Below are positions 37,036-50,463 of a DNA stretch of 64,000 bases, piece after piece. Source of the stretch: a virus; IMG/VR virus record IMGVR_UViG_3300047560_000724, positions 16,580-80,579 of that record. The stretch is one strand, 5' to 3'. Position 1 is the first letter of the stretch. Every line of letters begins with the position of its first letter. The position numbers and the translations under genes were made by a program. The notes under the pieces were generated by a model. The model was not told the origin of the DNA. It searched no databases and saw only the letters and a list, made by a program, of their open reading frames with translations.

Positions 37036-37060
37036 AAAATAGGCCCCGAAGGGCCTATTT
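37036..37060 (-). terminator. Rho-independent terminator
   Basis: Leftward AAATAGGCCC-TTCG-GGGCCTATTTT right after the kinase stop. Confidence 0.85.
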
Positions 37061-37523: not shown

Positions 37524-37531
37524 ACTACTCC

Positions 37532-38743: not shown

Positions 38744-40153
38744 TTACAGGTCGTAGCGTGGGACCATTACAGTCTTAAGCATAATACCTTCTGGAGTGAA
38801 CTGATCAAGATCAGCACTCAAAAGAGCTGTCATAATGCTTGGGCTGAACCCTGACACCAAAGCAGCTCCTGTCTTGTCTGCCTTAACAGGTACATTGTCT
38901 GAACTGTTTAGGTTCCAGAAAACAATCTGTGGCATTGCATAGCCAGCGGCTTCGAACTTGCGTTCGATCATTTCCATTGCGCTATCGTCGTAACGGGCGC
39001 ATTGGTTGAATTGCATGTCTGACAAGATTAGTAGCATAGCTGGCATATCGCTAGCAGGAACATTTCCCTTAACTGCTGTGCTTAGGATCTTATCCATAGC
39101 GGCATGCAGGTTAGTACTCATTTCCCAGTTGCTACGAGACATTTGGTCAACCTTTTCAACAATGTTACCCTTTAGAGTAACAAGTTGTGGCTTGCTTGAG
39201 AAAGTCAAGAATGTGTCCTTGAACGCACCCTTGTTCTTGTCTGCAAGGTACAAGCCTAGGCTTACGGCTACATCAAGACAACGAACACTAGTGTCACGAC
39301 CTGCTGGGCAAGTCATAGAACCAGATACATCAACTAGAGGTAGGATACTTGCGTTGCCTACATAGTTTGGCAGAGCATCCCATTGTGCGATCACATGGTT
39401 AGTCTCTGTCTTGTCCAAAGTCTTGTAGCCGTGTGCGATGCCCTTTAGGACATCATGTGGGAAGATTGCGTTGGCGTTAACCTTAACAGTCTTATCCCCT
39501 GCCACCAACTTGGCCACATACTCTGCAAACGCAGGTGTGTGACGGTTGAATGCCTTCTTGTATTGGCGAGCCGCTACAGAAGGAACATGGCTAAAGTTGA
39601 TGTTATCCCAATCTCCTGCACACATTTGGGTTTCAACAACCTTTGTAAGTGCCACAAGGCTCTTACGGTATTGCTTTGGAGTCATGCCAAAGAAGGCACG
39701 GATCTCAGCGGCAATCTGACCCTTACGAGGAGTCCACTTTGCAGCCAAACCGTTCTTAGCACGAAGGGCATCGCCCAACATGGTATAAGCGGCTGACTTC
39801 AGAACTGGGTCTGAGAAGACAAAGATGTCATCCCAACGACCAACTTCTGGAACCTTGCGAAGCAAAGCCAAAGCGGCGTCTGGGTCACGCTTTTCTAGAT
39901 GAACTAGAATGTCGCGGAACAGTTGACGCTCACCTGCACCACCACGGACATCTCGTGCCCATTGTGCAATGCGAAGTGCAACATCAGAGTTTTCCACATA
40001 GGCTGCAGTGAAGTCAGCCTTAATATCCTTACCACGGCTTGCGCCGATCTTGTAGAACAAGTCAACACACGCCTTAGCTGTGGACTTACGAGCCTTCATG
40101 CCATTGGCAGTACGGGCTTCTTGATTTGCGATTGCGTTTACAAATGCGTTCAT
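38744..40153 (-). CDS. Ro60-like protein: TROVE/DUF2828 HEAT-repeat + vWA domain
   Basis: A 469-residue protein. Residues about 1-265 are helical and repeat-like (DVRGGAGERQLFRDILVHLE, RKVPEVGRWDDIFVF), as in the HEAT ring of TROVE and DUF2828 proteins. Residues about 275-469 form a von Willebrand A domain with a MIDAS motif (LVDVSGSMTCP) and LLILSDMQFNQ. Ro60 (TROVE-vWA) binds misfolded RNAs and Y RNAs and, in bacteria, tethers Y RNA to PNPase or assists rRNA and tRNA processing. DUF2828 is a related family common in T4-like phages. Three structured RNAs lie just upstream, one in its 5' UTR; GAGG precedes the ATG. Confidence 0.85.
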   Translation of the reverse strand: MNAFVNAIANQEARTANGMKARKSTAKACVDLFYKIGASRGKDIKADFTAAYVENSDVALRIAQWARDVRGGAGERQLFRDILVHLEKRDPDAALALLRKVPEVGRWDDIFVFSDPVLKSAAYTMLGDALRAKNGLAAKWTPRKGQIAAEIRAFFGMTPKQYRKSLVALTKVVETQMCAGDWDNINFSHVPSVAARQYKKAFNRHTPAFAEYVAKLVAGDKTVKVNANAIFPHDVLKGIAHGYKTLDKTETNHVIAQWDALPNYVGNASILPLVDVSGSMTCPAGRDTSVRCLDVAVSLGLYLADKNKGAFKDTFLTFSSKPQLVTLKGNIVEKVDQMSRSNWEMSTNLHAAMDKILSTAVKGNVPASDMPAMLLILSDMQFNQCARYDDSAMEMIERKFEAAGYAMPQIVFWNLNSSDNVPVKADKTGAALVSGFSPSIMTALLSADLDQFTPEGIMLKTVMVPRYDL

Positions 40154-40163
40154 TTTATTACCT

Positions 40164-40224
40164 CACAGAATGTATTGTTTTTCGATATGCTTGAAAATTG
40201 AAAGTTGCTGTTAACATTCTAAAA
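40164..40224 (-). ncRNA. Y-RNA-like element E, in 5' UTR of the Ro60-like gene
   Basis: Leftward RNA with helix AGAATGT (40214-40220) / ACATTCT (40167-40173), the conserved TTAACAGCAA after the 5' strand and CTGT at the 3' strand. The interior is short (CTTTCAATTTTC..) with no tRNA-like part. Only 4-10 bases after its 3' strand come GAGG and the ATG of the Ro60-like gene. The G-to-A / C-to-T double change against other copies keeps pairing. Confidence 0.75.
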
Positions 40225-40228
40225 TTCT

Positions 40229-40465
40229 AACAGGATGATTGTGCCAATTTGTTTATTATTCTGGTCTGACCAATTACGGCACTCAGACCCTAACAACAAT
40301 TCATGTTGTCTATCTTGTATTGTGTCTGTACAAGCATCATATTACGGATTCTCCGTACCTATCTATTCCTTCGGCGTCTATTTCTAGAAAGCATTTCTGC
40401 TTGTCCTCCGACCGCCTTCTATAGCTGTAGTCGTAGTAGTTTAAATTGCTGTAGTCATCCTATGA
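40229..40465 (-). ncRNA. Y-RNA-like element F (about 235 nt)
   Basis: Leftward RNA bounded by AGGATGA (40455-40461) / TCATCCT (40232-40238) with the conserved ACAGCAA and CTGTT. The interior has several clear hairpins: AAGCA-GAAA-TGCTT and TCTA-GAAA-TAGA (GNRA tetraloops), TACGGA-GAA-TCCGTA, and a D-arm-like GTCTGA..TCAGAC with a GTAATTGG loop. No ORF of note. Confidence 0.75.
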
Positions 40466-40467
40466 CT

Positions 40468-40640
40468 AACAGGATCGTTGTTGACTGCTTTTATTAGACT
40501 CAGGCCATCACTCTGAGCTCGTCCAGGGCATTTCAATAGTTACCTTCAACATACTCGGGCGAACCTCTGTACTCCAATAACTACCATGCACTATCCAGAC
40601 CTTTCATAGTAATATGAATGTTGCTGTGCCGATCCTAAAA
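40468..40640 (-). ncRNA. Y-RNA-like element G (about 170 nt)
   Basis: Leftward RNA bounded by AGGATCG (40630-40636) / CGATCCT (40471-40477), with CACAGCAA and CTGTTAG. Interior contains CTCAG..CTGAG hairpin, TAGTTA..TAACTA helix and a TTCG-containing segment. It is the first element after a sigma70-type promoter, so G, F and E and the Ro60-like gene are probably one transcript. Confidence 0.75.
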
Positions 40641-40668
40641 CTGTTTGTTAATTGCTTAACATGTATCT

Positions 40669-40697
40669 ATTATAGTACAGATTGTACTTCTTGTCAC
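40669..40697 (-). promoter_or_regulatory. Sigma70-type promoter for the Y-like RNA/Ro60 transcript
   Basis: Leftward GTGACA (40692-40697), 17-bp spacer, TATAAT (40669-40674), about 30 bases before element G. Confidence 0.78.
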
Positions 40698-40728
40698 TAT
40701 ATTTTGGCTAAATTCGCAAAATATATTT

Positions 40729-40806
40729 TGGAGCAACGGGAGGGATTTGAACCCCCGGTTTTACGGATTTGCAATCCGTTGCATTGGGCCGCTCTGCCAC
40801 CGTTGC
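40729..40806 (-). tRNA. tRNA-Cys(GCA)
   Basis: Cloverleaf on the minus strand; anticodon loop TTGCAAA, T-loop TTCAAAT, 7-bp acceptor GCAACGG/CCGTTGC, encoded CCA. Last tRNA of the array before the Ro60-like region. Confidence 0.93.
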
Positions 40807-40811
40807 ATATT

Positions 40812-40887
40812 TGGTGGGTCCTGACGGGCTCGAACCGCCGACATTCTGCGTGTAAGGCAGACGCTCTACCAACTGAGCTAAGGACCC
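40812..40887 (-). tRNA. tRNA-Val(TAC), copy 1
   Basis: Anticodon loop CTTACAC, acceptor GGGTCCT-type helix, T-loop TTCGAGC, encoded CCA; all four arms intact. Confidence 0.93.
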
Positions 40888-40894
40888 AAATGCT

Positions 40895-41125
40895 TTACTT
40901 GACTCGCTTCAAGTACTCTTTACCAATCTTACCTTCTTGAATTTCTTCTAAGGCTGTAATGATAGGAAAAATATGTTCTCGCTTAGTGCTTTCTTGATTG
41001 TGTCTTTTGATTTCTCTAGACCTTGCCGCAGCAATTAATACAAGATCAAATCTATTCTCCCCTGCATTAGTAACACACTTGTCAGTGTCAATACCAGTAC
41101 CACGACTATCACTTAGCTTTCTCAT
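40895..41125 (-). CDS. rpoZ: RNA polymerase omega subunit homologue
   Basis: A 76-residue protein matching RpoZ: NRFDLVLIAAARSREIKR (the NRFxLVxxAxxRAR core helix) and IITALEEIQEGKIGKEYL (the TVxALxEIxxGxI motif). The N-terminus is short and diverged (MRKLSDSRGTGIDTDKCVTN). The C-terminus ends right after the second motif, as in betaproteobacterial omegas (KKVP). It would assemble with beta-prime of host RNA polymerase, possibly altering ppGpp response or promoter choice. Phage omega genes are unusual. SD AGAGG precedes the start; it sits between tRNA genes. Confidence 0.9.
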   Translation of the reverse strand: MRKLSDSRGTGIDTDKCVTNAGENRFDLVLIAAARSREIKRHNQESTKREHIFPIITALEEIQEGKIGKEYLKRVK

Positions 41126-41153
41126 ATAATATCCTCTTTGTGTATTTAATACT

Positions 41154-41228
41154 TGGTCCCGTTACCAAGAATCGAACTTGGATCTAATTCTTAGGAGGAA
41201 CTTGTTCTATCCATTGAACTATAACGAG
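41154..41228 (-). tRNA. tRNA-Arg(CCT)
   Basis: Anticodon loop CTCCTAA, acceptor CTCGTTA/TAACGGG (one G-U), encoded CCA. Confidence 0.88.
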
Positions 41229-41229
41229 A

Positions 41230-41319
41230 TGGTCCCCCGTTGAGGAATCGAACCTCATCCTGGACCTTATCTAGATTAAGGTGTTATAAGCACCCCTGCT
41301 CTCCATGAGCTAACGGGGG
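41230..41319 (-). tRNA. tRNA with TAT anticodon and long variable arm
   Basis: Acceptor CCCCCGT/ACGGGGG, compact D-arm GCTC-ATGGA-GAGC, anticodon loop CTTATAA (TAT, would read AUA Ile), T-arm TGAGG-TTCGATT-CCTCA, encoded CCA. The variable region is about 21 bases and can fold (CTAGA..TCCAG), a class II feature unusual for an Ile tRNA. Confidence 0.78.
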
Positions 41320-41326
41320 ATGAAGT

Positions 41327-41400
41327 TGGTTGCGGGTCCCGGAATCGAACCAGGATCTCGAGCTTATGAGACTCGTGAGTTACCGTTTCTCTAACCCGCT
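41327..41400 (-). tRNA. tRNA with CAT anticodon, initiator-like end
   Basis: Anticodon loop CTCATAA. Positions 1 and 72 are A and A (no pair) and D-stem pair 11-24 is A-U, both initiator features. The anticodon stem lacks the three G-C pairs of bacterial initiators. Encoded CCA. Could be fMet, Met or lysidine-Ile. Confidence 0.85.
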
Positions 41401-41406
41401 ATAAAT

Positions 41407-41483
41407 TGGTCGGAGTACAAGGATTCGAACCTTGGACCCCCTGGTCCCAAACCAGGTGCGCTACCAGACTGCGCCACACTCCG
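41407..41483 (-). tRNA. tRNA-Pro(TGG), copy 1
   Basis: Anticodon loop TTTGGGA on stem CCTGG/CCAGG; acceptor CGGAGTG/TACTCCG; encoded CCA. Confidence 0.92.
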
Positions 41484-41485
41484 AA

Positions 41486-41698
41486 TTAAACTGTTGTTTT
41501 CTTTTTCCTAGTCTTCTTAACTGGAATTTCTGCACTCGCTACACTAGCAATAGCTTCTTGGACATCACGCATAAGGGCTTCGTCGTCCCATATAAGTTCT
41601 GTACTTCCGTCTTCAAATGTCTTAACGGTTAGGTGACTACCTTGATTAATCTTTGGCCATCCGTTAGCTTCTACATTTTTTAATTTCTTAGTCGCCAT
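41486..41698 (-). CDS. Small basic protein, unknown
   Basis: A 70-residue protein lodged between tRNA-Pro and tRNA-Gly: MATKKLKNVEANGWPKINQG, a beta-rich core (LTVKTFEDGSTELIWDDEAL), a helix and a KKTRKKKTTV tail. May bind nucleic acid through the basic ends. No known family; start follows a TAAGGA-type SD-poor leader. Confidence 0.65.
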   Translation of the reverse strand: MATKKLKNVEANGWPKINQGSHLTVKTFEDGSTELIWDDEALMRDVQEAIASVASAEIPVKKTRKKKTTV

Positions 41699-41716
41699 TT
41701 GCTAGTCCTTAAAATT

Positions 41717-41789
41717 TGGAGCGGGTAGTCGGATTCGAACCGGCTTCTTTAGCTTGGAAGGCTAAGTCCTCTCCCAGGAGAATACCCGC
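41717..41789 (-). tRNA. tRNA-Gly(TCC)
   Basis: Anticodon loop CTTCCAA on TTAGC/GCTAA; acceptor GCGGGTA/TACCCGC; encoded CCA. Confidence 0.93.
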
Positions 41790-41992
41790 ATAGTGTTTAG
41801 CTACTCCCACCACAGGAGCCCTAAACTGAGCTGTTACTCTGTCCACTAGCCTTTCCATCTAGACGGTGCTGAGGTCCGCCTTTGTGATTTCTCAAGTCGC
41901 TTTACACAAGCCTTGCGGTAGATCCAATGCACCGAGCTATTAAGGTTTAAGCAATTACCTAACTCTATTACGCTGAGTTAACGCGGGGTTTT
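41790..41992 (-). ncRNA. Structured spacer RNA between tRNA-Gly and tRNA-Thr
   Basis: About 200 bases without an ORF. The leftward RNA begins with hairpin TAACTC-agcgtaata-GAGTTA and ends with a long hairpin GTTTAG..CTAAAC enclosing CTCC/GGAG that abuts tRNA-Gly. It includes GTAACAGC but not the flanking helix of the Y-like family. Function unknown. Confidence 0.5.
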
Positions 41993-42068
41993 TGGTGCCC
42001 CTTGTCCGACTCGAACAGACCACCTACTGATTACAAATCAGTTGCTCTACCAGATGAGCTAAAGGGGC
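41993..42068 (-). tRNA. tRNA-Thr(TGT), copy 1
   Basis: Anticodon loop TTTGTAA on ACTGA/TCAGT; acceptor GCCCCTT/AAGGGGC; encoded CCA. Confidence 0.93.
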
Positions 42069-42074
42069 GTATTG

Positions 42075-42335
42075 TTATTTAATTTCGTTACCTGCTAGGT
42101 CTGCTTTTCCAGTCTCATAAAGTTCTTTGCGTCTTGCAAATTCATCTTCACTTAAACCGTGCCAACCAATACACTTGCCAGTTGGGCTACGGCCACACCC
42201 GCATCTTCCAACTTCGTCTATATTTTCTTTTACTCTTACTTGCATATCTTTATCTTTTTTAAAAATTGCATCCCAGTTACTATCAAATGTAGTTAATGGA
42301 ACACTTAACGGTCTTGCTTTACTGCCTTTACCCAT
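42075..42335 (-). CDS. CDGSH-like iron-sulfur small protein
   Basis: The frame opens within the HNH gene, but ATG 42335 (MGKGSKARPLSVPLTTFDSN) is the likely start, giving 86 residues. The motif CGCGRSPTGKCIGWHGLSED (CxC-x2-S-x4-C-x-G-x-H) resembles the CDGSH [2Fe-2S] motif C-x-C-x2-S-x3-P-x-C-D-G-S-H, one residue shorter and with Gly-Trp in place of Gly-Ser. Probably a small redox or Fe-S protein. It sits between tRNA-Thr and the HNH gene. Confidence 0.65.
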   Translation of the reverse strand: MGKGSKARPLSVPLTTFDSNWDAIFKKDKDMQVRVKENIDEVGRCGCGRSPTGKCIGWHGLSEDEFARRKELYETGKADLAGNEIK

Positions 42336-42363
42336 TAGATAATCTCCTGTGTGTTTGGTGGAC

Positions 42364-42750
42364 TTATCGTTTAAGTCCCCTTGCCTGTCTGCCCTTACCT
42401 TTATTCTTAGCAACAAATGTATCTGTTTGACTATGGCAGTTTGGACACAACAGTCTTAAATTTTTTGGCTTATCATTACCTGCATCACCGTCTATATGAT
42501 CTAATTGTAGCACTAAAGGTACATCGTTGTAAACCCCTTCATTGCCACAACTTACACATCTATAACCATGCAAGTGTGTTAAGCATCTTATTAAAGTTCT
42601 TCTTGTAGAAATTTCGCCTTTTAAAAACTTAGACAAAGTTTCTGTTTCAAATTGATGTTGCTGCTGACAAGTGTTATTACAATACTTGTTTGCATAATTC
42701 CTTTTTACAGGATTCTCTTTACCGCAACATAAACAATTGAATGTATTCAT
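42364..42750 (-). CDS. HNH endonuclease (homing-type, in tRNA array)
   Basis: Start at ATG 42750 (MNTFNCLCCGKENPVKRNYA) after an AGAGGAC SD; upstream in-frame codons run into tRNA-Ala. 128 residues: N-terminal zinc ribbon (CLCCGKEN...KYCNNTCQQQ) and an HNH domain (YRCVSCGNEG, LQLDHIDGDAGNDKPKNLRL then LCPNCHSQTDTF). It is of the type seen in free-standing homing endonucleases of T4-like phages, here within a tRNA array that could be its target. An exact TATAAATA late motif precedes it. Confidence 0.88.
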   Translation of the reverse strand: MNTFNCLCCGKENPVKRNYANKYCNNTCQQQHQFETETLSKFLKGEISTRRTLIRCLTHLHGYRCVSCGNEGVYNDVPLVLQLDHIDGDAGNDKPKNLRLLCPNCHSQTDTFVAKNKGKGRQARGLKR

Positions 42751-42767
42751 AATGTAGTCCTCTACAT

Positions 42768-42775
42768 TATTTATA
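42768..42775 (-). promoter_or_regulatory. Late-promoter-like TATAAATA motif
   Basis: Leftward exact TATAAATA, 18 bases before the HNH start at 42750. Confidence 0.65.
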
Positions 42776-42790
42776 CAGAACTCTACATTT

Positions 42791-43471
42791 TTAAAGAACT
42801 TTGGTGGAGGTAACAGGGATCGAACCTGCGACATTTTGGTTGCAAACCAAACGCTCTCCCAGCTGAGCTATACCCCCGAATAACGCTTTTTTAGCATCAT
42901 CAAAATAAACAGCGCCTGGATTAACATCTCTTAATGTTAGCACCATTCTTTCATTTTTTGATTTGCTGTTATCAAAATCGTGAAAAATTTCTGTATTAAA
43001 AAGAATACACTCGCCCTGTTGTGCGGTCATACGCTTTAATGGAGTATGTTTTTTAGAATCAAATCCTAAACATTCTCTACTTTGTTTCCTTTCAATAGGA
43101 TCAGGATCAATTGGGTATTCTTTTAACTCTTCATCGGAATACCAACTTGTAACACAATCGTTATCAAGAATCTTAACTGTATAATTAAGACTGTAGCGAT
43201 GGTCTAACCCGTCCTTATGTGCTCTATAATAATATCCTGGCTGTGTTGTAAACAACGACACTCGCCATTGATTTAATTTTAGTTCTTCATTCAATGGTAT
43301 ACTATCCATAATATCTTTTGCTTGTGCTGTAGGATATATGTGATGTGTAAATCCTTTTGTAAAGGACATACCCCATACATACGCCAGGCATTTAGTTATT
43401 ACAGTATCTAGTCCTTCGTGTGTAAAACGAATATAGTACGGACTACAGTCTTCTATTATAGTATACTTCAT
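42791..43471 (-). CDS. 2OG-Fe(II) oxygenase-like protein reading into tRNA-Ala
   Basis: A 226-residue ORF. Residues 1-197 are a double-stranded beta-helix oxygenase-like domain: YYRAHKDGLDHRYSLNYTV (HxD ligands), then QGECILFNTEIFHDFDNSKS (distal His) and ERMVLTLRD (Arg binding 2-oxoglutarate). The last about 29 residues (GGIAQLGERLVCNQNVAGSI onward) are translation of the tRNA-Ala gene on the same strand; no stop precedes it. So the gene truly overlaps the tRNA, or a stop was lost. ATG lies 4 bases after an ATAAATA motif: probably leaderless. Confidence 0.75.
   Translation of the reverse strand: MKYTIIEDCSPYYIRFTHEGLDTVITKCLAYVWGMSFTKGFTHHIYPTAQAKDIMDSIPLNEELKLNQWRVSLFTTQPGYYYRAHKDGLDHRYSLNYTVKILDNDCVTSWYSDEELKEYPIDPDPIERKQSRECLGFDSKKHTPLKRMTAQQGECILFNTEIFHDFDNSKSKNERMVLTLRDVNPGAVYFDDAKKALFGGIAQLGERLVCNQNVAGSIPVTSTKVL
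42802..42877 (-). tRNA. tRNA-Ala(TGC), copy 1
   Basis: Anticodon loop TTTGCAA; acceptor GGGGGTA/TACCTCC; encoded CCA. Lies inside the 3' end of the oxygenase-like ORF. Confidence 0.93.
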
Positions 43472-43475
43472 TGTA

Positions 43476-43482
43476 TATTTAT
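43476..43482 (-). promoter_or_regulatory. Late-promoter-like ATAAATA motif, 4 bases from ATG
   Basis: Leftward CATAAATATACAATG: motif directly before the start at 43471, overlapping the CCA end of tRNA-Asn. Confidence 0.6.
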
Positions 43483-43558
43483 GGCTCCCCGAGCTGGGCT
43501 CGAACCAGCGACACCTTGATTAACAGTCAAGTGCTTCTACCAACTGAGCTATCAGGGA
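43482..43558 (-). tRNA. tRNA-Asn(GTT), copy 1
   Basis: Anticodon loop CTGTTAA on CTTGA/TCAAG; acceptor TCCCTGA/TCGGGGA; encoded CCA. Confidence 0.93.
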
Positions 43559-43564
43559 ATATTC

Positions 43565-44014
43565 TCATATCTCTTTATGTAGCCTATAAAATTTAGGGTA
43601 CATACCGACCTTGGCCGCTGATGCTAAACGACTCTTGTTGTTTACTTCAACAAGACTACTTAACATATAAGCGCCTAATTTTTTACAATCTGCCTCGTAG
43701 TACTCGTGGCAAATTTGATTTAATCCTCTTCCTCGGAATTCTGGTTCAGTAAAACTAAGAACTAACCAGCCCATTCGTTGATCTGGATAGTATTCATAAG
43801 CAATACCGCCTTGAACATTACCACTAGTATCTTGCACCCAAACAACTCTGTTTGAAATCTTAAATGCAAAAGTGGGTAATGAAAACCCTTTATCAACAAG
43901 TTCAGCCCAAACTTTTAAAAACGGAGCAACAACTGGAGTATATTGCATCGTATCCGATTGCCAAACTTCAATTGGGTTACCTAGCTTGTCTTGAGCATCT
44001 GCTATCTTCTTCAT
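43565..44014 (-). CDS. GNAT-family N-acetyltransferase
   Basis: A 149-residue GNAT protein: VVWVQDTSGNVQGGIAYEYY, beta4 MGWLVLSFTEPEFRGRGLNQ with the acetyl-CoA pyrophosphate loop (RGRGLN), and helix ICHEYYEADCKKLGA, then the C-terminal strand. Substrate unknown. SD AAGGTG precedes the ATG. It is a monocistronic gene between tRNA-Asn and tRNA-Ser. Confidence 0.82.
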   Translation of the reverse strand: MKKIADAQDKLGNPIEVWQSDTMQYTPVVAPFLKVWAELVDKGFSLPTFAFKISNRVVWVQDTSGNVQGGIAYEYYPDQRMGWLVLSFTEPEFRGRGLNQICHEYYEADCKKLGAYMLSSLVEVNNKSRLASAAKVGMYPKFYRLHKEI

Positions 44015-44055
44015 ACTTACACCTTTAAAAATGTAAATTACTTATCACTACTAAT

Positions 44056-44149
44056 TGGCGGTGAGCGAGAGATTCGAACTCTCGATGCAGGTTTATGCCC
44101 ACATGCCTCCTTAGCAGGGAGGTACCTTCGGCCACTCGGTCAGCTCACC
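44056..44149 (-). tRNA. tRNA-Ser(GCT)
   Basis: Class II with long variable arm; anticodon loop CTGCTAA on CCTCC/GGAGG; acceptor GGTGAGC/GCTCACC; encoded CCA. Confidence 0.93.
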
Positions 44150-44352
44150 ATTAGTTGTATTGTCTTGTTATGGACAACAATAACCCTATTGCCGTTTGCT
44201 TTTAACGAGCACAACTTGTATGAGTCCTCCTGCAGAAGGTTGTCTCACTTTCATTATGCATCAACAGTATTGGCCGCGCTAGCTAGACGGAGGACCCATT
44301 GACTGTGCATTACCCAGGTGTACACTGAGTTTTTCCAAAACAATACAACTAA
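44150..44352 (-). ncRNA. Structured spacer RNA closed by a perfect 13-bp terminal helix
   Basis: About 200 bases exactly filling the gap between tRNA-Tyr (CCA) and tRNA-Ser (position 1). Its ends are TTAGTTGTATTGT and ACAATACAACTAA, perfectly complementary. Inside, GTCCTCC/GGAGGAC and ATGCA/TGCAT can pair. No ORF. Confidence 0.65.
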
Positions 44353-44437
44353 TGGTGGACAGGGACGGATTCGAACCATCGTAGCCTGAGGCGGCAGATT
44401 TACAGTCTGCTGGTATTAACCACTCACCCACCTGTCC
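44353..44437 (-). tRNA. tRNA-Tyr(GTA), copy 1
   Basis: Class II; anticodon loop CTGTAAA on GCAGA/TCTGC; encoded CCA directly followed by the spacer helix. Confidence 0.93.
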
Positions 44438-44443
44438 ATTGTT

Positions 44444-44528
44444 TGGTGCGACCTCCCGGAATCGAACCGGGACGACTTTCGTCGAGAGATTTTAAGTCTC
44501 TTGTGTCTACCTATTTCACCAAGGTCGC
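44444..44528 (-). tRNA. tRNA-Leu(TAA)
   Basis: Class II; anticodon loop CTTAAAA on AGAGA/TCTCT; acceptor GCGACCT/AGGTCGC; encoded CCA. Confidence 0.93.
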
Positions 44529-44533
44529 ATATC

Positions 44534-44761
44534 TTACTGACTTCTGCGCTTCATCCAAGTGTAGTCTACACCGTCTGGACACTTTCCGTCATTAACGCTG
44601 TCAGCACCAAAGATGCCAACAATTTCCATTTCGTTACCTTTTATAGTAACAAATTCATTCATGTGCTTTGCAAGGTTCATTGCTTCTGCAAGTGTAAGAA
44701 CCTTAAATGTTTCTTCTTTACCTATTACTTTATACATTGTTAATTTTACTTTCTTTTTCAC
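44534..44761 (-). CDS. Small protein, unknown
   Basis: A 75-residue protein MKKKVKLTMYKVIGKEETFK..., with an alternative start at the ATG eight codons on (MYKVIGKEE). Charged alpha/beta pattern (LAEAMNLAKHMNEFVTIKGN, MEIVGIFGADS) and a basic C-terminus. Located between tRNA-Leu and tRNA-Trp. No known family. Confidence 0.6.
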   Translation of the reverse strand: MKKKVKLTMYKVIGKEETFKVLTLAEAMNLAKHMNEFVTIKGNEMEIVGIFGADSVNDGKCPDGVDYTWMKRRSQ

Positions 44762-44787
44762 TCATCACAACAATGACGACAATTAAA

Positions 44788-44861
44788 TGGCGTACCCCCA
44801 GGGACTCGAACCCCGACCGACAGTTTTGGAGACTGTAATGCTGCCATTACACTAGGGATAC
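44788..44861 (-). tRNA. tRNA-Trp(CCA)
   Basis: Anticodon loop CTCCAAA on CAGT/ACTG; acceptor GTATCCC/GGGGTAC; encoded CCA. Confidence 0.92.
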
Positions 44862-44868
44862 ATGTCCT

Positions 44869-44960
44869 TGGCGGAAGCTGAGAGATTCGAACTCTCGGAC
44901 GGGATAAACCGTCGGCAGTTTTCAAGACTGCTGCAATAAACCGGACTCTGCCAAACTTCC
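44869..44960 (-). tRNA. tRNA-Ser(TGA)
   Basis: Class II; anticodon loop CTTGAAA on GCAGT/ACTGC; acceptor GGAAGTT-type helix; encoded CCA. Confidence 0.93.
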
Positions 44961-44965
44961 ATTAT

Positions 44966-45048
44966 TGGTGCCCCCTCCGAGACTCGAACTCGGACGCTCT
45001 CGCACTGGCTTCTAAGACCAGCGTGTCTACCAATTCCACCAAAGGGGC
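44966..45048 (-). tRNA. tRNA-Leu(TAG)
   Basis: Class II; anticodon loop CTTAGAA on CTGGT/GCCAG; encoded CCA. Confidence 0.93.
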
Positions 45049-45058
45049 ATAATTCTTT

Positions 45059-45152
45059 ACCATATAGAAACACACTAGCGGGCATATCTAGGTTGCCGCT
45101 TATCGCACCTTAGTCCTAGTACTGAGTATAGGCTAGTGCATTTTTATATGGT
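45059..45152 (-). ncRNA. Hairpin spacer element, family 2, copy 1
   Basis: Terminal inverted repeat ACCATATAGAAACAC.. / ..TTTTTATATGGT with about 60 variable bases inside. Its first bases are the 3' ACCA of tRNA-Glu, so the stem starts flush with the tRNA end. Two more copies lie at 47025 and 47122. Confidence 0.65.
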
Positions 45153-45224
45153 ACTCGGTAGGGGAATCGAACCCCTCTTCCCGCCGTGAAAGGGCGGTGT
45201 CCTAGACCGATAGACGAACCGAGC
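45149..45224 (-). tRNA. tRNA-Glu(TTC), copy 1
   Basis: Anticodon loop CTTTCAC on CCGCC/GGCGG; acceptor GCTCGGT/ACCGAGT; encoded CCA. Confidence 0.92.
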
Positions 45225-45284
45225 AAATTAACCGTTAAATTTTTAATGAACAATTATACTACTGTGTTAACAGCGTATGTATCT

Positions 45285-45313
45285 ATTATATAGCCTACCA
45301 AGCATTGTGTCAA
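45285..45313 (-). promoter_or_regulatory. Sigma70-type promoter inside the tRNA array
   Basis: Leftward TTGACA (45308-45313), 17-bp spacer, TATAAT (45285-45290), between tRNA-Arg(TCG) and tRNA-Glu; boosts the distal half of the array. Confidence 0.87.
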
Positions 45314-45344
45314 TACTTTTTTGGCTAACAATGCAAATATATTT

Positions 45345-45419
45345 TGGCCGGGCTTAGAGGAATCGAACCTCTACCTGCGGTTTCGAAGACCGTAATGATA
45401 TCCATTTCACCAAAGCCCG
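45345..45419 (-). tRNA. tRNA-Arg(TCG)
   Basis: Anticodon loop CTTCGAA on CGGT/ACCG; acceptor CGGGCTT/AAGCCCG; encoded CCA. Confidence 0.92.
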
Positions 45420-45421
45420 CA

Positions 45422-45428
45422 ATAAATA
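45422..45428 (+). promoter_or_regulatory. Late-promoter-like ATAAATA motif, 4 bases from GTG
   Basis: + strand AATAAATATTCTGTG: motif, 4 bases, then the GTG start at 45433; same arrangement at 48722. Confidence 0.6.
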
Positions 45429-45432
45429 TTCT

Positions 45433-45975
45433 GTGAAAAATTATTATCCAATACTAGTTGACAATTTAGAATCATTAAGGGAAAAAGTACTTGCCAATCT
45501 TCCTGAACGAGTTTTTAACTTTACTGCCGTTACTTACGACCATGCACTTGCTTATAACATAGCAAGACTACCCGAAGTAGTTTCTGCACTCGAACAGTTT
45601 GGAGGTATTAAACAAATTGAGTCAATTGCGTTTAATGTAACACCACCTAACCGTACTGGGAAGATACATACCGACACTGGCGGATATGCTTACACTTTTA
45701 ATATTCCATTATTAAATTTTAGAAACACATTCTTACGGTTACACAGGAAAACTAAAGAACCTATTTCTAAAACTTATAAAGATCCGCAAGGTAATGATAT
45801 CAATTATCACTTATACAATAAAACAAACTGTGTGTTAGATCAAACAATAGAAACGCTTGAACCACATATATTTAATACAACAGTTCCACATCAAGTAGTT
45901 AATCCTAACGATACTATCAGAATTAATATGCTGATTAGATTGAAGTTAGATACTGACTTTAGTAAATTTAATTAA
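45433..45975 (+). CDS. 2OG-Fe(II) oxygenase-like protein (beta-hydroxylase type)
   Basis: A 180-residue protein with GTG start, in + orientation against the array. Features of a cupin-like 2-oxoglutarate oxygenase: FNVTPPNRTGKIHTDTGGYA (HxD), YTFNIPLLNFRNTFLRLHRK, TTVPHQVVNPNDTIRINMLI (His, then Arg for 2OG). Related in style to those at 42791 and 49978. Peptidyl or small-molecule hydroxylation is likely; substrate unknown. No SD; the ATAAATA motif 4 bases upstream suggests a leaderless mRNA. Confidence 0.72.
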   Translation: MKNYYPILVDNLESLREKVLANLPERVFNFTAVTYDHALAYNIARLPEVVSALEQFGGIKQIESIAFNVTPPNRTGKIHTDTGGYAYTFNIPLLNFRNTFLRLHRKTKEPISKTYKDPQGNDINYHLYNKTNCVLDQTIETLEPHIFNTTVPHQVVNPNDTIRINMLIRLKLDTDFSKFN

Positions 45976-45976
45976 C

Positions 45977-46051
45977 TGGCACCGCGAGTTGGATTCGAAC
46001 CAACATCTTACACTTTAGAAGAGTGTTGCCTATCCCTTAGACTATCGCGGT
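45977..46051 (-). tRNA. tRNA-Arg(TCT)
   Basis: Anticodon loop CTTCTAA on CACT/AGTG; acceptor ACCGCGA/TCGCGGT; encoded CCA. Confidence 0.92.
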
Positions 46052-46052
46052 A

Positions 46053-46126
46053 TGGTGCTCTTAGATAGAATCGAACTATCATTACCTCCATACCAAAGAG
46101 GCGTTCTACCATTTAACTATAAGAGC
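46053..46126 (-). tRNA. tRNA-Thr(GGT)
   Basis: Anticodon loop TTGGTAT on CCTCT/GGAGG; acceptor GCTCTTA/TAAGAGC; encoded CCA. Confidence 0.87.
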
Positions 46127-46128
46127 AA

Positions 46129-46207
46129 TGGTACCCCTGCTCCGATTCGAACGGAGAACAACTTCTCCTTTTGAGAGAGACGACTTTACCAATTTGTCCA
46201 CAGGGGC
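46129..46207 (-). tRNA. tRNA-Leu(CAA), short variable region
   Basis: Anticodon loop CTCAAAA on TCTCT/GGAGA; acceptor GCCCCTG/CAGGGGT; encoded CCA. The variable region is only 7 bases, unlike the class II arm of normal tRNA-Leu, so charging identity is uncertain. Confidence 0.8.
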
Positions 46208-46482
46208 ATAGAATTTGTCTTAGATTGTTCACCGCACAATCTAAGAAAGCGGGGGTCTGTTGAATTTGTAAGTAGTTCCCCCATCGTTATAGGAACCATT
46301 CACCCGTGTAATTAAGCCGGCCGGGACTCGGTACGCCACTAGGGATACTAGTCCAGTTTAGCAACCTGTTTGCAACCGTCCTTCCGGGCGGCCGGGAGTT
46401 GAACCCGCAACCTTCTACTATTTCGGTCCTTCGAAGAAACCTAGATAGCGTGACATTCTCTTGCTGACACTTACAAAACTGT
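46208..46482 (-). ncRNA. Structured RNA H: tRNA-mimic-like element plus hairpin
   Basis: No ORF. Leftward RNA has terminal helix TTTGTAAGT/ACTTACAAA (9 bp) with GTCAGCAAG after the 5' strand, a weak match to the Y-like family. Inside are a T-arm (GCGGG-TTCAACT-CCCG) followed by a stem CCGCCC-GGAA-GGACGG closed by a GNRA loop, as in the capped acceptor stems of elements A and C. The 3' part ends with hairpin CTTAGATTGT/ACAATCTAAG. Confidence 0.55.
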
Positions 46483-46558
46483 TGGGGTGCTAGATGGGGA
46501 ACGATCCCATACTATCGCTTTCACAGAGCGAGGTGCAGACCACTACACTACTAACACC
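46483..46558 (-). tRNA. tRNA-His(GTG)
   Basis: Anticodon loop CTGTGAA on TCGCT/AGCGA; extra G at -1 opposite C73, the histidine identity pair; encoded CCA. T-loop is atypical (ATCGTTC). Confidence 0.9.
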
Positions 46559-46567
46559 ATAGAAAAA

Positions 46568-46690
46568 ACAGGATACATTTTATAGCGCACTACCAATTGT
46601 GCTAACTTGGCATGAAGCCAAATGTTGGACTCGAACCAACAACCTCTCGCTTAGAAGGCGAAAATTGTTTGCTGTTAGTATCCTAAACTT
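46568..46690 (-). ncRNA. Y-RNA-like element A with circularly permuted tRNA-like domain
   Basis: Bounded by AGGATAC (46678-46684) / GTATCCT (46570-46576), with TAACAGCAAA and CTGTTT. Inside, in RNA order: anticodon-type arm TTCGC-CTTCTAA-GCGAG, T-arm GTTGG-TTCGAGT-CCAAC, acceptor-type helix ATTTGGC/GCCAAGT closed by loop TTCAT, D-arm GCAC-AATTGGTA-GTGC. All tRNA parts are present but permuted, with no free acceptor end and no CCA. Confidence 0.82.
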
Positions 46691-46765
46691 GGAGCGGGAG
46701 ACGAGGTTCGAACTCGCGACATTTACCTTGGCAAGGTAATGCTCTACCAACTGAGCTACTCCCGC
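46690..46765 (-). tRNA. tRNA-Gly(GCC)
   Basis: Anticodon loop TTGCCAA on TTACC/GGTAA; acceptor GCGGGAG/CTCCCGC; encoded CCA. Confidence 0.93.
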
Positions 46766-46773
46766 ATGAGACT

Positions 46774-46850
46774 TGGCGCGGTGGACGGGGCTCGAACCCG
46801 CGACCCTTGGCGTGACAGGCCAATACTCTGACCAACTGAGCTACCACCGC
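46774..46850 (-). tRNA. tRNA-Asp(GTC), copy 1
   Basis: Anticodon loop CTGTCAC on TTGGC/GCCAA; acceptor GCGGTGG/CCACCGC; encoded CCA. Confidence 0.93.
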
Positions 46851-46873
46851 GTAATTTTAATTATCTTTTATTT

Positions 46874-46947
46874 TGGTTCCTCCAACAAGAATCGAACTTG
46901 TAATGACCGGTTATCAGCCGATTGTTATACCATTTAACTATAGAGGA
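46874..46947 (-). tRNA. tRNA-Ile(GAT)
   Basis: Anticodon loop CTGATAA on ATCGG/CCGGT; acceptor TCCTCTA/TGGAGGA; encoded CCA. Confidence 0.9.
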
Positions 46948-46953
46948 ATAATT

Positions 46954-47028
46954 TGGTGGTGATGAGTAGAGTCGAACTACCACCAGACTCCGTATGAAGG
47001 AGGCGCACTACCATTATGCTACATCACC
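46954..47028 (-). tRNA. tRNA with CAT anticodon (elongator Met or Ile2)
   Basis: Anticodon loop TTCATAC; normally paired acceptor GGTGATG/CATCACC; encoded CCA. The paired 1-72 position argues against an initiator. Confidence 0.88.
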
Positions 47029-47120
47029 ATATAGAAACACACTCGTGCCTTTTTCGTCAGAGGAAGGTGGCCTTTCCCAGTACCCGGACTATGTCCGGTG
47101 TCGAATATGTTTTCATATGG
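47025..47120 (-). ncRNA. Hairpin spacer element, family 2, copy 2
   Basis: Terminal repeats ACCATATAGAAACACAC / TTTTCATATGGT; its end overlaps the first bases of the CAT tRNA. About 60 variable bases inside; back-to-back with copy 3. Confidence 0.6.
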
Positions 47121-47121
47121 T

Positions 47122-47210
47122 AATACCATATAGAAACACACTGGCTTGCAAGACTTCTACTAACCTTTCGATGGATGTCGCAGTTAGTATTCAATGTGTT
47201 TTTATATGGT
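47122..47210 (-). ncRNA. Hairpin spacer element, family 2, copy 3
   Basis: Terminal repeats ACCATATAGAAACACAC / TGTGTTTTTATATGGT; begins with the CCA of tRNA-Lys(TTT). Interior has ACTAAC..GTTAGT hairpin. No ORF. Confidence 0.65.
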
Positions 47211-47280
47211 AGGGGCACAGAGAATCGAACTCTGATTAATAGGTTAAAAGCCTACTACTTTGCCGTTAAGTTATACCCCC
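47207..47280 (-). tRNA. tRNA-Lys(TTT)
   Basis: Anticodon loop CTTTTAA on TAGG/CCTA; acceptor GGGGGTA/TGCCCCT; encoded CCA. Confidence 0.9.
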
Positions 47281-47283
47281 GTA

Positions 47284-47358
47284 TGGTCCACGCTCTGAGA
47301 ATCGAACTCAGTTCCTCCGGGTAAGAGCCGGTTACTTCGCCACTAAAGTTTAGCGTGG
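47284..47358 (-). tRNA. tRNA-Lys(CTT)
   Basis: Anticodon loop CTCTTAC on CCGG/CCGG; acceptor CCACGCT/AGCGTGG; D-arm ACTT/AAGT; encoded CCA. Confidence 0.9.
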
Positions 47359-47392
47359 TTGGTCGTAATTAAATTGATTTAATGTGCCAACC
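47357..47392 (-). other. Hairpin flush with tRNA-Lys(CTT) 5' end
   Basis: GGTTGG / CCAACC enclosing ATTAAAT / ATTTAAT. It abuts position 1 of tRNA-Lys(CTT); possibly a processing signal. No T-run, so not a standard terminator. Confidence 0.5.
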
Positions 47393-47419
47393 AGGACCAA
47401 TACGGGGTCAAGGTCGACA

Positions 47420-47440
47420 CTAGCGTTTACCGCGTTTCAT
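47420..47440 (-). CDS. Possible 6-residue leader-type ORF (MKRGKR)
   Basis: AAAGGAG sits 8 bases before an ATG encoding MKRGKR and a TAG stop, in the gap between element B and the hairpin at 47357. A perfect SD before so short a frame is unexpected; it may be a leader peptide or a remnant of a deleted gene. Confidence 0.3.
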   Translation of the reverse strand: MKRGKR

Positions 47441-47470
47441 GTCGTTCTCCTTTTGAACATTGTTGAAATA

Positions 47471-47541
47471 AACAGGATGTATTTTTACGGTTTTGATTAA
47501 AAGTCAAATGTATAAATTTTTGCTGTTAACATCCTTAACTT
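47471..47541 (-). ncRNA. Y-RNA-like element B (short, anticodon-arm-like hairpin)
   Basis: Bounded by AGGATGT / ACATCCT with TTAACAGCAAA and CTGTTTA. The interior has one hairpin TTTGA-CTTTTAA-TCAAA, which looks like an anticodon arm of tRNA-Lys, without other tRNA parts. Confidence 0.75.
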
Positions 47542-47614
47542 GGTGCTCCATCGAGGAATCGAACCCCAATTGCCGGACTACAAAACCGGTGTCTTACCAT
47601 TAAACGAATGGAGC
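47541..47614 (-). tRNA. tRNA-Thr(TGT), copy 2
   Basis: Anticodon loop TTTGTAG (pair 31-39 is T-T, mismatched); acceptor GCTCCAT/ATGGAGC; encoded CCA. Diverged from copy 1. Confidence 0.78.
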
Positions 47615-47621
47615 AAATTTA

Positions 47622-47742
47622 AACAGGATAGAATTTAACATAGTGCTACCGTTACACCAAACCTTTCGGCTGCGGAGTCGAACCGCTCCCTTACTTTTCA
47701 AGAGTAGTGAGTTAATTATTTTTGCTGTTACTATCCTTAACT
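47622..47742 (-). ncRNA. Y-RNA-like element C with GAAA-capped tRNA-like domain
   Basis: Bounded by AGGATAG (47731-47737) / CTATCCT (47625-47631), with TAACAGCAAA and CTGTTTA. Inside, in order: anticodon-type arm TACT-CTTGAAA-AGTA, T-arm GCGG-TTCGACT-CCGC, stem AGCC-GAAA-GGTT (acceptor helix closed by a GNRA tetraloop), D-arm GTG-TAACGGTAG-CAC. Same permuted order as element A; cannot be aminoacylated. Confidence 0.82.
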
Positions 47743-47815
47743 GGTACCTCGTTACAGAATCGAACTGTCATCAACGGTATGTAACACCGTGGTTCTGCCA
47801 TTAAACTACCGAGGC
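47742..47815 (-). tRNA. tRNA-Val(TAC), copy 2
   Basis: Anticodon loop GTTACAT on ACGGT/ACCGT; acceptor has one mismatch (7-66); encoded CCA. Diverged from copy 1. Confidence 0.85.
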
Positions 47816-47821
47816 ATAAAT

Positions 47822-47897
47822 TGGTCTCCCTACCAGGATTCGAACCTGGACCACACGGCCCCAAACCGTGTACGCAACCTGATAACGCTTTAGAGAG
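47822..47897 (-). tRNA. tRNA-Pro(TGG), copy 2
   Basis: Anticodon loop TTTGGGG on CACGG/CCGTG; acceptor CTCTCTA/TAGGGAG; encoded CCA. Confidence 0.9.
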
Positions 47898-48053
47898 ATA
47901 AAGGTTGGGCGCCACACTATCCTCCTGGGAGGACTCGCATGATTGTCTCGAATAGTCAAGTCTAATACCACTCCTAACCGTTCTTGCGCTGTCACATAGC
48001 TGAGTCACTATGCTAGGTTGGGTGGGACTCTAAACTACCGTCTATCCCGAAAT
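47898..48053 (-). ncRNA. Uncharacterised structured spacer
   Basis: 156 bases with no credible ORF. Hairpins GCATAG..CTATGT and CCTCC-CAGGAGG are visible in the leftward RNA, and CCCAACCT occurs near both ends. No match to the helix of the Y-like family. Confidence 0.4.
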
Positions 48054-48128
48054 TGGTGGAGGCCGAGGGAGTTGAACCCTTCTAGTCAGCAACCTTGCAA
48101 GGGTTACCCGTAGCCCGCTACTGCCCCC
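48054..48128 (-). tRNA. tRNA-like gene, TGC anticodon (Ala copy 2?), tiny D-loop
   Basis: Anticodon loop CTTGCAA on AACC/GGTT, T-arm AAGGG-TTCAACT-CCCTC, encoded CCA. The D-arm is GTAG-CGGG-CTAC with only 4 loop bases, and the acceptor has a mismatch; function doubtful. Confidence 0.65.
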
Positions 48129-48138
48129 AAATTCTTTT

Positions 48139-48215
48139 TGGCACCCGAGGAAGGATTCGAACCTCCGACTCCAATGTTCGTAGCATTGTACTCTAGTCCA
48201 CTGAGTTACACGGGT
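48139..48215 (-). tRNA. tRNA-Arg(ACG)
   Basis: Anticodon loop CTACGAA on CAATG/CATTG; acceptor ACCCGTG/CTCGGGT; encoded CCA. A34 would need TadA deamination. Confidence 0.9.
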
Positions 48216-48300
48216 ATAAATTAGTGTTAGTTTCTATACCACCCATTGAAACTAACAAACATTGAGAAGCCATGCATCAAAACAAGACTTCTATTTGCCC
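48216..48300 (-). other. Spacer with perfect 10-bp hairpin
   Basis: TGTTAGTTTC..GAAACTAACA hairpin (near 48228-48261) between tRNA-Phe and tRNA-Arg(ACG). No ORF; possibly an RNase III or RNase E site. Confidence 0.5.
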
Positions 48301-48376
48301 TGGTGCCGCCTCTAGGGATCGAACCTAGTTCCACGGTGCTTCAAACCGGTGCTATGACCACATCAGCTAAAGCGGC
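48301..48376 (-). tRNA. tRNA-Phe(GAA)
   Basis: Anticodon loop TTGAAGC on CCGGT/ACCGT (outer pair mismatched); acceptor GCCGCTT/AGGCGGC; encoded CCA. Confidence 0.85.
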
Positions 48377-48380
48377 AAAT

Positions 48381-48455
48381 TGGCGCCACGGACGAGAATC
48401 GAACTCGCCTTAGTCGGATAGACAATCCGTTGCCCTCCCAGAGAACTACCGTGGC
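48381..48455 (-). tRNA. tRNA with GTC anticodon (Asp copy 2), atypical
   Basis: Anticodon loop TTGTCTA (T at 37, unusual) on CGGA/TCCG; acceptor GCCACGG/CCGTGGC; encoded CCA. Confidence 0.75.
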
Positions 48456-48501
48456 ATATAAGTCTACACATCCTGCCTCTATGAGGCAGGGGTAGCATAG
48501 T

Positions 48502-48577
48502 TGGTATCGCGGACGGGAATCGAACCCGCCTAGTCAAGTTGAAAGCCTGATGACCTAACCCAGAAGTCCACCGCGAT
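48502..48577 (-). tRNA. tRNA-Glu(TTC), copy 2
   Basis: Anticodon loop CTTTCAA; acceptor ATCGCGG/CCGCGAT; encoded CCA. Sequence differs greatly from copy 1. Confidence 0.87.
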
Positions 48578-48583
48578 ATAATA

Positions 48584-48646
48584 AACAGGATACATTCTTT
48601 TTCACCATTTGAAAGTTGATTAAGATTTGCTGTTAGTATCCTTAAA
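48584..48646 (-). ncRNA. Y-RNA-like element D (short)
   Basis: Bounded by AGGATAC (48636-48642) / GTATCCT (48587-48593), with TAACAGCAAA and CTGTTTA. The 43-base interior (AATCAACTTTCAAATGGTGA) resembles element E and has no tRNA-like part. Confidence 0.75.
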
Positions 48647-49977: not shown

Positions 49978-50463
49978 TTAACTTTCTACTACACCGACTA
50001 GGTGCAAGCGGGCCTGCTCGGAACAATTCATGAAAGTATGTAGTTTGCGTGTGTCAGTCCAGTAAACTGAGTCAACACTCAAGTGTTGTGGTGCGGAATC
50101 CTTAAACACAAAGTAACAGTTAGGGTTGGTCACTAACGGAATGTGAACCCTTGGTGTTTCATCCCTGTGCATACTGTAACAAGCATAAGGGCCAACCCAC
50201 ATGAGTCTTGTTCTTAGCAGCCGGTACTTAGTGATTAGCTCTTCAAAGACTGTGCCCTTAAAGAAAGGATTTAGCTCAGTGTAACTAGTTTCGTTGCCCT
50301 TACTTCTGCCGACCGCACTCGTCCACGCATCTTCACCTAGTTTAAACTGAAGGCCACATTGTTTACCCTTGTGGCCATAGTCAGTCCATTGTATATCTAA
50401 TTCAAGATCAGTGTACTTTGTTAAGATAGCAGAAGAACTTATACTATCTAATACTTTGATCAT
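49978..50463 (-). CDS. Aspartyl/asparaginyl beta-hydroxylase-like 2OG oxygenase
   Basis: A 161-residue cupin-type oxygenase: MWVGPYACYSMHRDETPRVH (HxD and the PxxxxxxHxDxxPRxHI motif of Asp/Asn beta-hydroxylases), IPLVTNPNCYFVF, then VYWTDTRKLHTFMNCSEQAR with the second His and R that binds 2-oxoglutarate. Complete active site. It could hydroxylate a product of the adjacent PP-loop ATPases. Overlaps the 374-residue gene by four bases; last gene of the leftward island. Confidence 0.85.
   Translation of the reverse strand: MIKVLDSISSSAILTKYTDLELDIQWTDYGHKGKQCGLQFKLGEDAWTSAVGRSKGNETSYTELNPFFKGTVFEELITKYRLLRTRLMWVGPYACYSMHRDETPRVHIPLVTNPNCYFVFKDSAPQHLSVDSVYWTDTRKLHTFMNCSEQARLHLVGVVES

Follow-up and report, generated by a model that had tools for sequence, protein, structure and literature searches.

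Covariation and gene linkage suggest that a family of small RNA elements, present in several copies in a viral genome, very probably supplies the partner RNAs of a Ro60-like protein. The elements and the gene for the protein lie in a stretch of 64,000 nucleotides (nt), here called the window, which covers positions 16,580 to 80,579 of the record IMGVR_UViG_3300047560_000724. All element coordinates refer to the numbering of the window. The full source record is a viral contig of 80.6 kilobases (kb) and may be partial.

Seven elements with a common end helix

The window was scanned for a 7-nt strand, a linker of 1–3 nt, the motif ACAGCAA, a variable interior, the complementary strand, and a final GT. 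Exactly seven matches were obtained, all on the minus strand and each with a perfect 7-base-pair (bp) helix, and neither the plus strand nor either of the reversed strands gave an element when scanned in this way. A sequence-only reading of this DNA had described seven elements with six helix versions, all of which were recovered where that reading had placed them. The elements and the gene are as follows:

38744–40153, minus strand: gene for the Ro60-like protein, 469 amino acids; DUF2828 and DUF7788 (Pfam), phrog_850; vWA domain with the metal-site motif DVSGSM
40165–40220, minus strand: element E, 56 nt; helix AGAATGT/ACATTCT, then TA, ACAGCAA, and a small hairpin
40230–40461, minus strand: element F, 232 nt; helix AGGATGA/TCATCCT; large structured interior; kept in close relatives
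40469–40636, minus strand: element G, 168 nt; helix AGGATCG/CGATCCT; large interior; kept in close relatives
46568–46684, minus strand: element A, 117 nt; helix AGGATAC/GTATCCT enclosing a permuted transfer RNA (tRNA) mimic
47472–47535, minus strand: element B, 64 nt; helix AGGATGT/ACATCCT enclosing one anticodon stem-loop
47623–47737, minus strand: element C, 115 nt; helix AGGATAG/CTATCCT enclosing a second permuted tRNA mimic
48585–48642, minus strand: element D, 58 nt; helix AGGATAC/GTATCCT; small hairpin, anticodon loop not clear

The spacing between ACAGCAA and the 3′ strand of the helix ranged from 31 to 207 nt. Four of the seven elements are located inside a tRNA array, kilobases upstream of the Ro60-like gene. 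Element E is followed directly on its 3′ side by a ribosome-binding-like site (GAGG) and then by the start codon of that gene. ARAGORN called none of the seven elements as a tRNA, and a search of Rfam at E ≤ 1 returned no family for elements E, F, or G. Consensus folding of G and F revealed the end helix plus scattered inner pairs only.

For the covariation analysis, 277 unique elements were collected from all fetched loci. They were picked by their invariant letters only (AGGAT..CAGCAA..ATCCTGT), which guards against circularity. Both variable helix pairs were Watson–Crick in 263 of these elements, compared with a mean of 41 and a maximum of 63 upon shuffling of the partners (2000 shuffles). 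This covariation strongly suggests that the elements are an RNA family under selection, and it bears out the multi-copy family that the sequence-only reading had proposed. The motif itself had to be narrowed. ACAGCAA had been considered invariant, but its first position varies (T, G, and C were seen), and the distant loci contained 167 sense matches to NCAGCAA versus 64 to ACAGCAA. The real motif is N-CAGCAA, and the family is described by helix-NNN-CAGCAA...helix-GT. A pseudoknot between ACA and TGT, which had also been put forward, was rejected as unsupported. The first base varies, the other two pairs never vary, leaving no covariation behind the proposed pairs, and a base needed for one of these two is already taken up by the helix.

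The Ro60-like protein and its linkage to the elements

In Pfam, the Ro60-like protein matched DUF2828 and DUF7788 only and had no match to TROVE (PF05731), and a single-sequence search of the PDB gave no significant relative. An AlphaFold2 model based on 65 homologues reached a mean predicted local distance difference test score (pLDDT) of 91.7 and a predicted template modeling score (pTM) of 0.91. Upon comparison of this model with the PDB by Foldseek, all ten matches with E < 0.001 were Ro60-family (Ro60/Rsr/TROVE) structures, including Xenopus Ro60 (1YVR and 2I91), Ro60 of Thermus phage phiLo (9L5Y), a TROVE domain (9KOP), Deinococcus radiodurans Rsr (2NVO), and human Ro60. The best template modeling (TM) score was 0.65 (2I91_A), the E value to 1YVR was 1.8e-9, and the identity in the structural alignments amounted to 11–18%. 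The metal-site motif DxSxS of the vWA domain is present as DVSGSM, with D275, S277, and S279 invariant in the 65 sequences. According to the model, the protein is a member of the Ro60 fold (HEAT-like ring plus vWA) in a DUF2828/DUF7788 branch, and the fold confirms the label "Ro60-like" that the gene had been given. With the Ro60/Rsr proteins 1YVR, 2I91, 2NVO, and 9L5Y it shares the overall fold over the full length and a vWA domain with metal site; it differs from them by the missing TROVE match and the missing single-sequence PDB match.

Proteins with DUF2828/DUF7788 occur in at least 682 phage records. Relatives are already labeled as "Ro-like RNA binding protein" in some phage records. Fold matches in BFVD included DUF7788/DUF2828 proteins from giant viruses (Pithovirus, Cafeteria roenbergensis virus, Mimiviridae). 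Positions 37059–38634 of the window, downstream of the Ro60-like gene, encode a kinase-like protein of the AAA_33 type, a protein resembling dual-specificity phosphatases, and a metallophosphoesterase, and these three may serve in the healing of RNA ends.

Linkage between element and gene was examined with a strict scan, in which sense matches were compared with those on three control strands. The close relatives (80 viral loci) contained 225 sense elements versus 0/0/1 on the controls. The corresponding numbers were 160 versus 1/11/1 for distant viral loci (roughly 40–57% identical to the query used), 20 versus 0/0/0 for phage records, and 50 versus 1/0/0 for bacterial and archaeal genome loci. 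Among the close loci with enough upstream sequence, 61 of 62 had an element within 700 nt 5′ of the gene, with no control match. The median distance from the end of the element to the start codon was 13 nt in the close relatives, and the element–gene distance was larger in the bacterial loci (median, 145 nt). We found the motif at DUF2828/DUF7788 genes in phages of Listeria, Enterococcus, Staphylococcus, and Mycobacterium as well as in genomes of Clostridia, Chloroflexi, and spirochaetes, including a complete Breznakiella chromosome. Listeria phage A511 carries three elements just upstream of its Ro-like gene, and further cases are Enterococcus phage EA1 and Mycobacterium phage DirkDirk. In a Clostridia genome (L485:5240-5895), three near-identical elements of 127–133 nt stand in tandem before the Ro-like gene.

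A scan of all viral contigs with a 14-letter RNA seed gave matches that were partly due to chance, and a full-helix filter was needed before the contigs were used as cases and controls. A Ro-like gene was present on 18 of the 26 seed-found contigs with a full element and on 0 of the 14 with the seed only (Fisher P = 2e-5). The elements had been described as a phage family. They do occur in phages, but they are not confined to them, being found also at genes of the same protein family on bacterial chromosomes. The same stem beside one protein family in phages and in bacteria of many phyla suggests a family of Ro60 partner RNAs not described before, although adjacency and covariation cannot prove protein binding.

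Cargoes resembling tRNA

Judging from sequence and predicted pairing, the interiors (cargoes) of elements B, A, and C are imitations of tRNA. These cargoes had escaped the sequence-only reading, and of all features of the elements they say most about function. The parts assigned in the window are the following:

46646–46662, minus strand: anticodon stem-loop in A, UUCGC-CUUCUAA-GCGAG, anticodon UCU (GCA or UAU instead in homologues)
46624–46640, minus strand: T arm in A, GUUGG-UUCGAGU-CCAAC
46606–46622, minus strand: hairpin in A joining the two acceptor-stem strands, no free CCA end (from the YrlA alignment)
46587–46602, minus strand: D arm in A, GCACAAUUGGUAGUGC, 3′ of the T arm
47492–47508, minus strand: anticodon stem-loop in B with anticodon UUU, UUUGA-CUUUUAA-UCAAA; shares 15 identical nt with E. 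coli tRNA-Lys lysT
47691–47707, minus strand: anticodon stem-loop in C, CUACU-CUUGAAA-AGUAA, anticodon UGA (GUA in homologue L030c)
47676–47682 and 47646–47650, minus strand: T loop and D-loop GGUAG, respectively, of the tRNA mimic in C

Element B consists of the end-helix handle plus a single hairpin, an anticodon stem-loop of the tRNA-Lys(UUU) type. In A and C, the order is anticodon arm, T arm, acceptor-joining hairpin, and D arm, which corresponds to a tRNA opened between the D arm and the anticodon arm. A tRNA has a full cloverleaf in the normal order with a free 3′ end, whereas here the T arm precedes the D arm and the acceptor is closed by a hairpin. As they have no free acceptor end, the permuted mimics would not serve in translation.

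Similar cargoes were present in the relatives. A hairpin with a YUNNNAA loop, as in an anticodon arm, was found in 70 of 162 short relatives, compared with approximately 4 (maximum 9) in dinucleotide shuffles. When arms were picked by the loop letters CTNNNAA alone, the five flanks were paired in 25 of 63 cases versus 4.3 with shuffled partners. T arms were detected in 60 of 359 elements (<1 expected), and 42 of 67 T-arm elements had a recognizable D arm after the T arm. Some elements contain an anticodon arm and nothing else of a tRNA. Homologues of A and C swap anticodons on the same frame (UCU, GCA, and UAU for A; UGA and GUA for C), and the anticodons of the mimic arms are diverse altogether, UUU, UGU, and UCU being the most common. 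A direct origin as copies of the phage's own tRNAs was not supported, with an identity of only 8–13 of 17 positions between arms with the same anticodon. One relative (L030:3288-3406) shows another permutation, in which T arm, hairpin, and D arm are followed by a 3′ anticodon-arm-like hairpin with a CUUCCAA loop.

Possible roles of the RNA family

We favor the explanation that the elements act as Ro-tethered decoys or baits for tRNA-cleaving enzymes, with a probability of roughly 0.4. The Ro60-like protein would bind a shared handle formed by the 7-bp helix of both ends, with N-CAGCAA on the 5′ side and GU on the 3′ side. The interior would be a swappable cargo, which in several cases imitates tRNA (the arm alone in B; a whole tRNA, reordered and presumably unchargeable, in A and C). 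The protein would display these mimics to host enzymes that cut tRNA anticodon arms in phage defence, and the real phage tRNAs together with repair enzymes would meanwhile sustain translation. Phage tRNAs are known to provide rescue from tRNA-cutting defences of their hosts (PARIS/AriB, PrrC, retron PtuAB) (PMC12409363, PMC11555353). Like these tRNAs, the elements represent phage RNA with tRNA anticodon arms and could counter such defences. The rescue tRNAs are, however, functional replacements, whereas the elements lack a free acceptor end and are linked to a Ro60-like protein, and therefore they would act as decoys and not as replacement tRNAs.

AriB, the nuclease of PARIS, has as its targets tRNA-Lys(UUU), Thr(UGU), and Asn(GUU), all of which carry UAAU at positions 36–39 (PMC12409363). 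We observed UAAU at these positions in 34 of 77 unique mimic arms versus 109 of 1217 tRNA arms from the same loci (P = 1e-14), and versus 105 of 772 after restriction of the comparison to tRNAs with YU...AA loops (P = 1e-9). The enrichment is a lead. RtcB, an RNA ligase, is encoded beside the Ro-like gene in 12 of 80 bacterial loci and four genes downstream of it in Listeria phage WIL-1. Held more tentatively is the wider proposal of a second Ro60 system in phages and bacteria, composed of DUF2828/DUF7788 proteins and helix-CAGCAA RNAs with exchangeable tRNA decoys, among them bare anticodon stem-loops for many tRNAs, by which phages would keep translation safe from PARIS/PrrC-type nucleases through sequestration or inhibition of the nuclease.

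Several observations weigh against tethered decoys. An element within 700 nt upstream was found in just 36 of 156 distant viral loci and 14 of 52 bacterial loci, where recall falls with distance, and three Ro-like phage loci (Felixounavirus L459, Campylobacter L461, and Ochrobactrum L464) had no element. No tRNA mimic was recognized in D, E, F, or G, and decoy action cannot explain every cargo. The UAAU test was devised with knowledge of the PARIS paper, and AU-rich stems or base composition may contribute to its outcome. Finally, no match to the RtcB or RNA_ligase families was detected in the 80.6-kb record, which may be a fragment.

The main rival is a role in RNA repair or turnover, which we consider less likely. 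The mimics would then be a scaffold or sensor that recruits tRNA-handling enzymes (RtcB, kinase/phosphatase, modification enzymes, a nuclease) to the Ro particle for the repair or degradation of damaged or misfolded RNA held there, as in the Ro/Y RNA/PNPase machine of D. radiodurans. The adjoining RtcB genes of bacteria and the phosphatase, phosphoesterase, and kinase-like genes just downstream of the Ro60-like gene are consistent with this role, and so are two described precedents, namely rsr-Y RNA-rtcBA operons (PMC7790460) and the tethering of PNPase by Y RNA (PMC4726728). However, a scaffold alone does not explain why many anticodons are mounted on one handle, and the lack of a ligase match in the record speaks against it as well.

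An autoregulatory leader, in which the protein binds G-F-E in its own 5′ leader and represses translation and the copies in the tRNA array titrate the protein, is improbable as the sole role. In relatives, a median of 13 nt separates the E-type element from the start codon, and GAGG directly follows the helix here. Four elements are, however, located kilobases upstream among tRNAs, the bacterial distance is larger (median, 145 nt), and the tRNA mimicry would be left unexplained. Element E, directly before the ribosome-binding site, probably allows the protein to regulate its own synthesis in addition to another role, not instead of it.

It is doubtful that the elements are classical YrlA RNAs too divergent for Rfam. 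The order of T arm, acceptor hairpin, and D arm is common to YrlA, to elements A and C (not B, D, E, F, and G), and to relatives of A. The Rfam model of YrlA (RF02553) scored at best 28.3 bits in the window (element A), below the gathering threshold of 69; this match was via the tRNA-like module, and the same model scores 24.8 bits on a real tRNA. In phages of Mycobacterium and Enterococcus, the model reached 39.8 and 45.9 bits, respectively, which is also below the threshold, and the end helix of the Rfam model was not aligned with that of the element. Ten TROVE-type Ro60 loci (five prokaryotic; five from Mycobacterium, Streptomyces, and Gordonia phages) contained 0 CAGCAA elements, and several of them show a GGGCCG..GGTTAYC-type sequence in its place. 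Because of the TROVE loci without CAGCAA and the unaligned YrlA helix, two Ro branches appear to use two RNA handles, and the terminal-helix motif is distinct from the one at TROVE-type Ro60 loci, as the sequence-only reading, which proposed a new motif, had supposed. Like YrlA, the partner of TROVE-type Rsr, the elements have an end helix and a Ro60-superfamily gene beside them, sometimes with RtcB. They differ in the CAGCAA handle, in an intact anticodon stem-loop as a separate hairpin, in short forms with an anticodon arm only, in up to seven copies with different cargoes, and in the DUF2828/DUF7788 partner. Common descent of the tRNA-like module of YrlA and the elements is possible.

Ro60 is reported to bind metazoan Y RNAs at a terminal helix of seven base pairs (PMC4726728). 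The elements share such a helix and a variable interior, but have no bulged-cytidine motif and carry the invariant CAGCAA on the 5′ strand. We know of no tRNA mimic in metazoan Y RNAs. The assignment of the elements to the Y RNAs holds in that their 5′ and 3′ ends are paired in a helix and that a Ro60-superfamily gene is adjacent; it does not hold with respect to YrlA, which was not matched above threshold, or to the partner, which is not of the TROVE type. No description of the CAGCAA handle or of anticodon-arm Y RNAs was found in the literature searched, which did not extend to key Y RNA papers.

That the elements are debris or processing signals of the tRNA array, that is, degenerate tRNA genes between repeats, is, as a main explanation, refuted by the covariation and by the genetic association with the Ro-like gene: four of the seven lie in the array and A scores just under the tRNA threshold (26.7 versus 29 bits), but the compensatory helix changes, the invariant CAGCAA, the anticodon arms without other tRNA parts, and the elements outside tRNA arrays on bacterial chromosomes make it most improbable.

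The tRNA array contains further noncoding sequences. A second RNA-like family is present in three copies (45060–45153, 47028–47123, and 47126–47213, minus strand) with long imperfect inverted ends, CCATATAAAAACACA...TGTGTTTCTATATGG, and the sequence of its 3′ end is seen again in about 30 of the fetched loci. Four noncoding stretches (41790–41992, 44150–44352, 46208–46482, and 47898–48053) have no tRNA or Rfam match; the third contains a T-arm-like sequence. Positions 50460–51584 and 51604–52764 are two similar adjacent genes, the first of which matches PP-loop/NAD synthase families.

With a constant presumed handle and a changing anticodon-arm cargo, the role of bacterial Y RNAs becomes directly testable, and the widespread DUF2828/DUF7788 proteins gain a likely RNA partner. 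The elements also suggest a principle of counter-defence that may exist besides replacement tRNAs, namely, RNA decoys tethered to a Ro particle.

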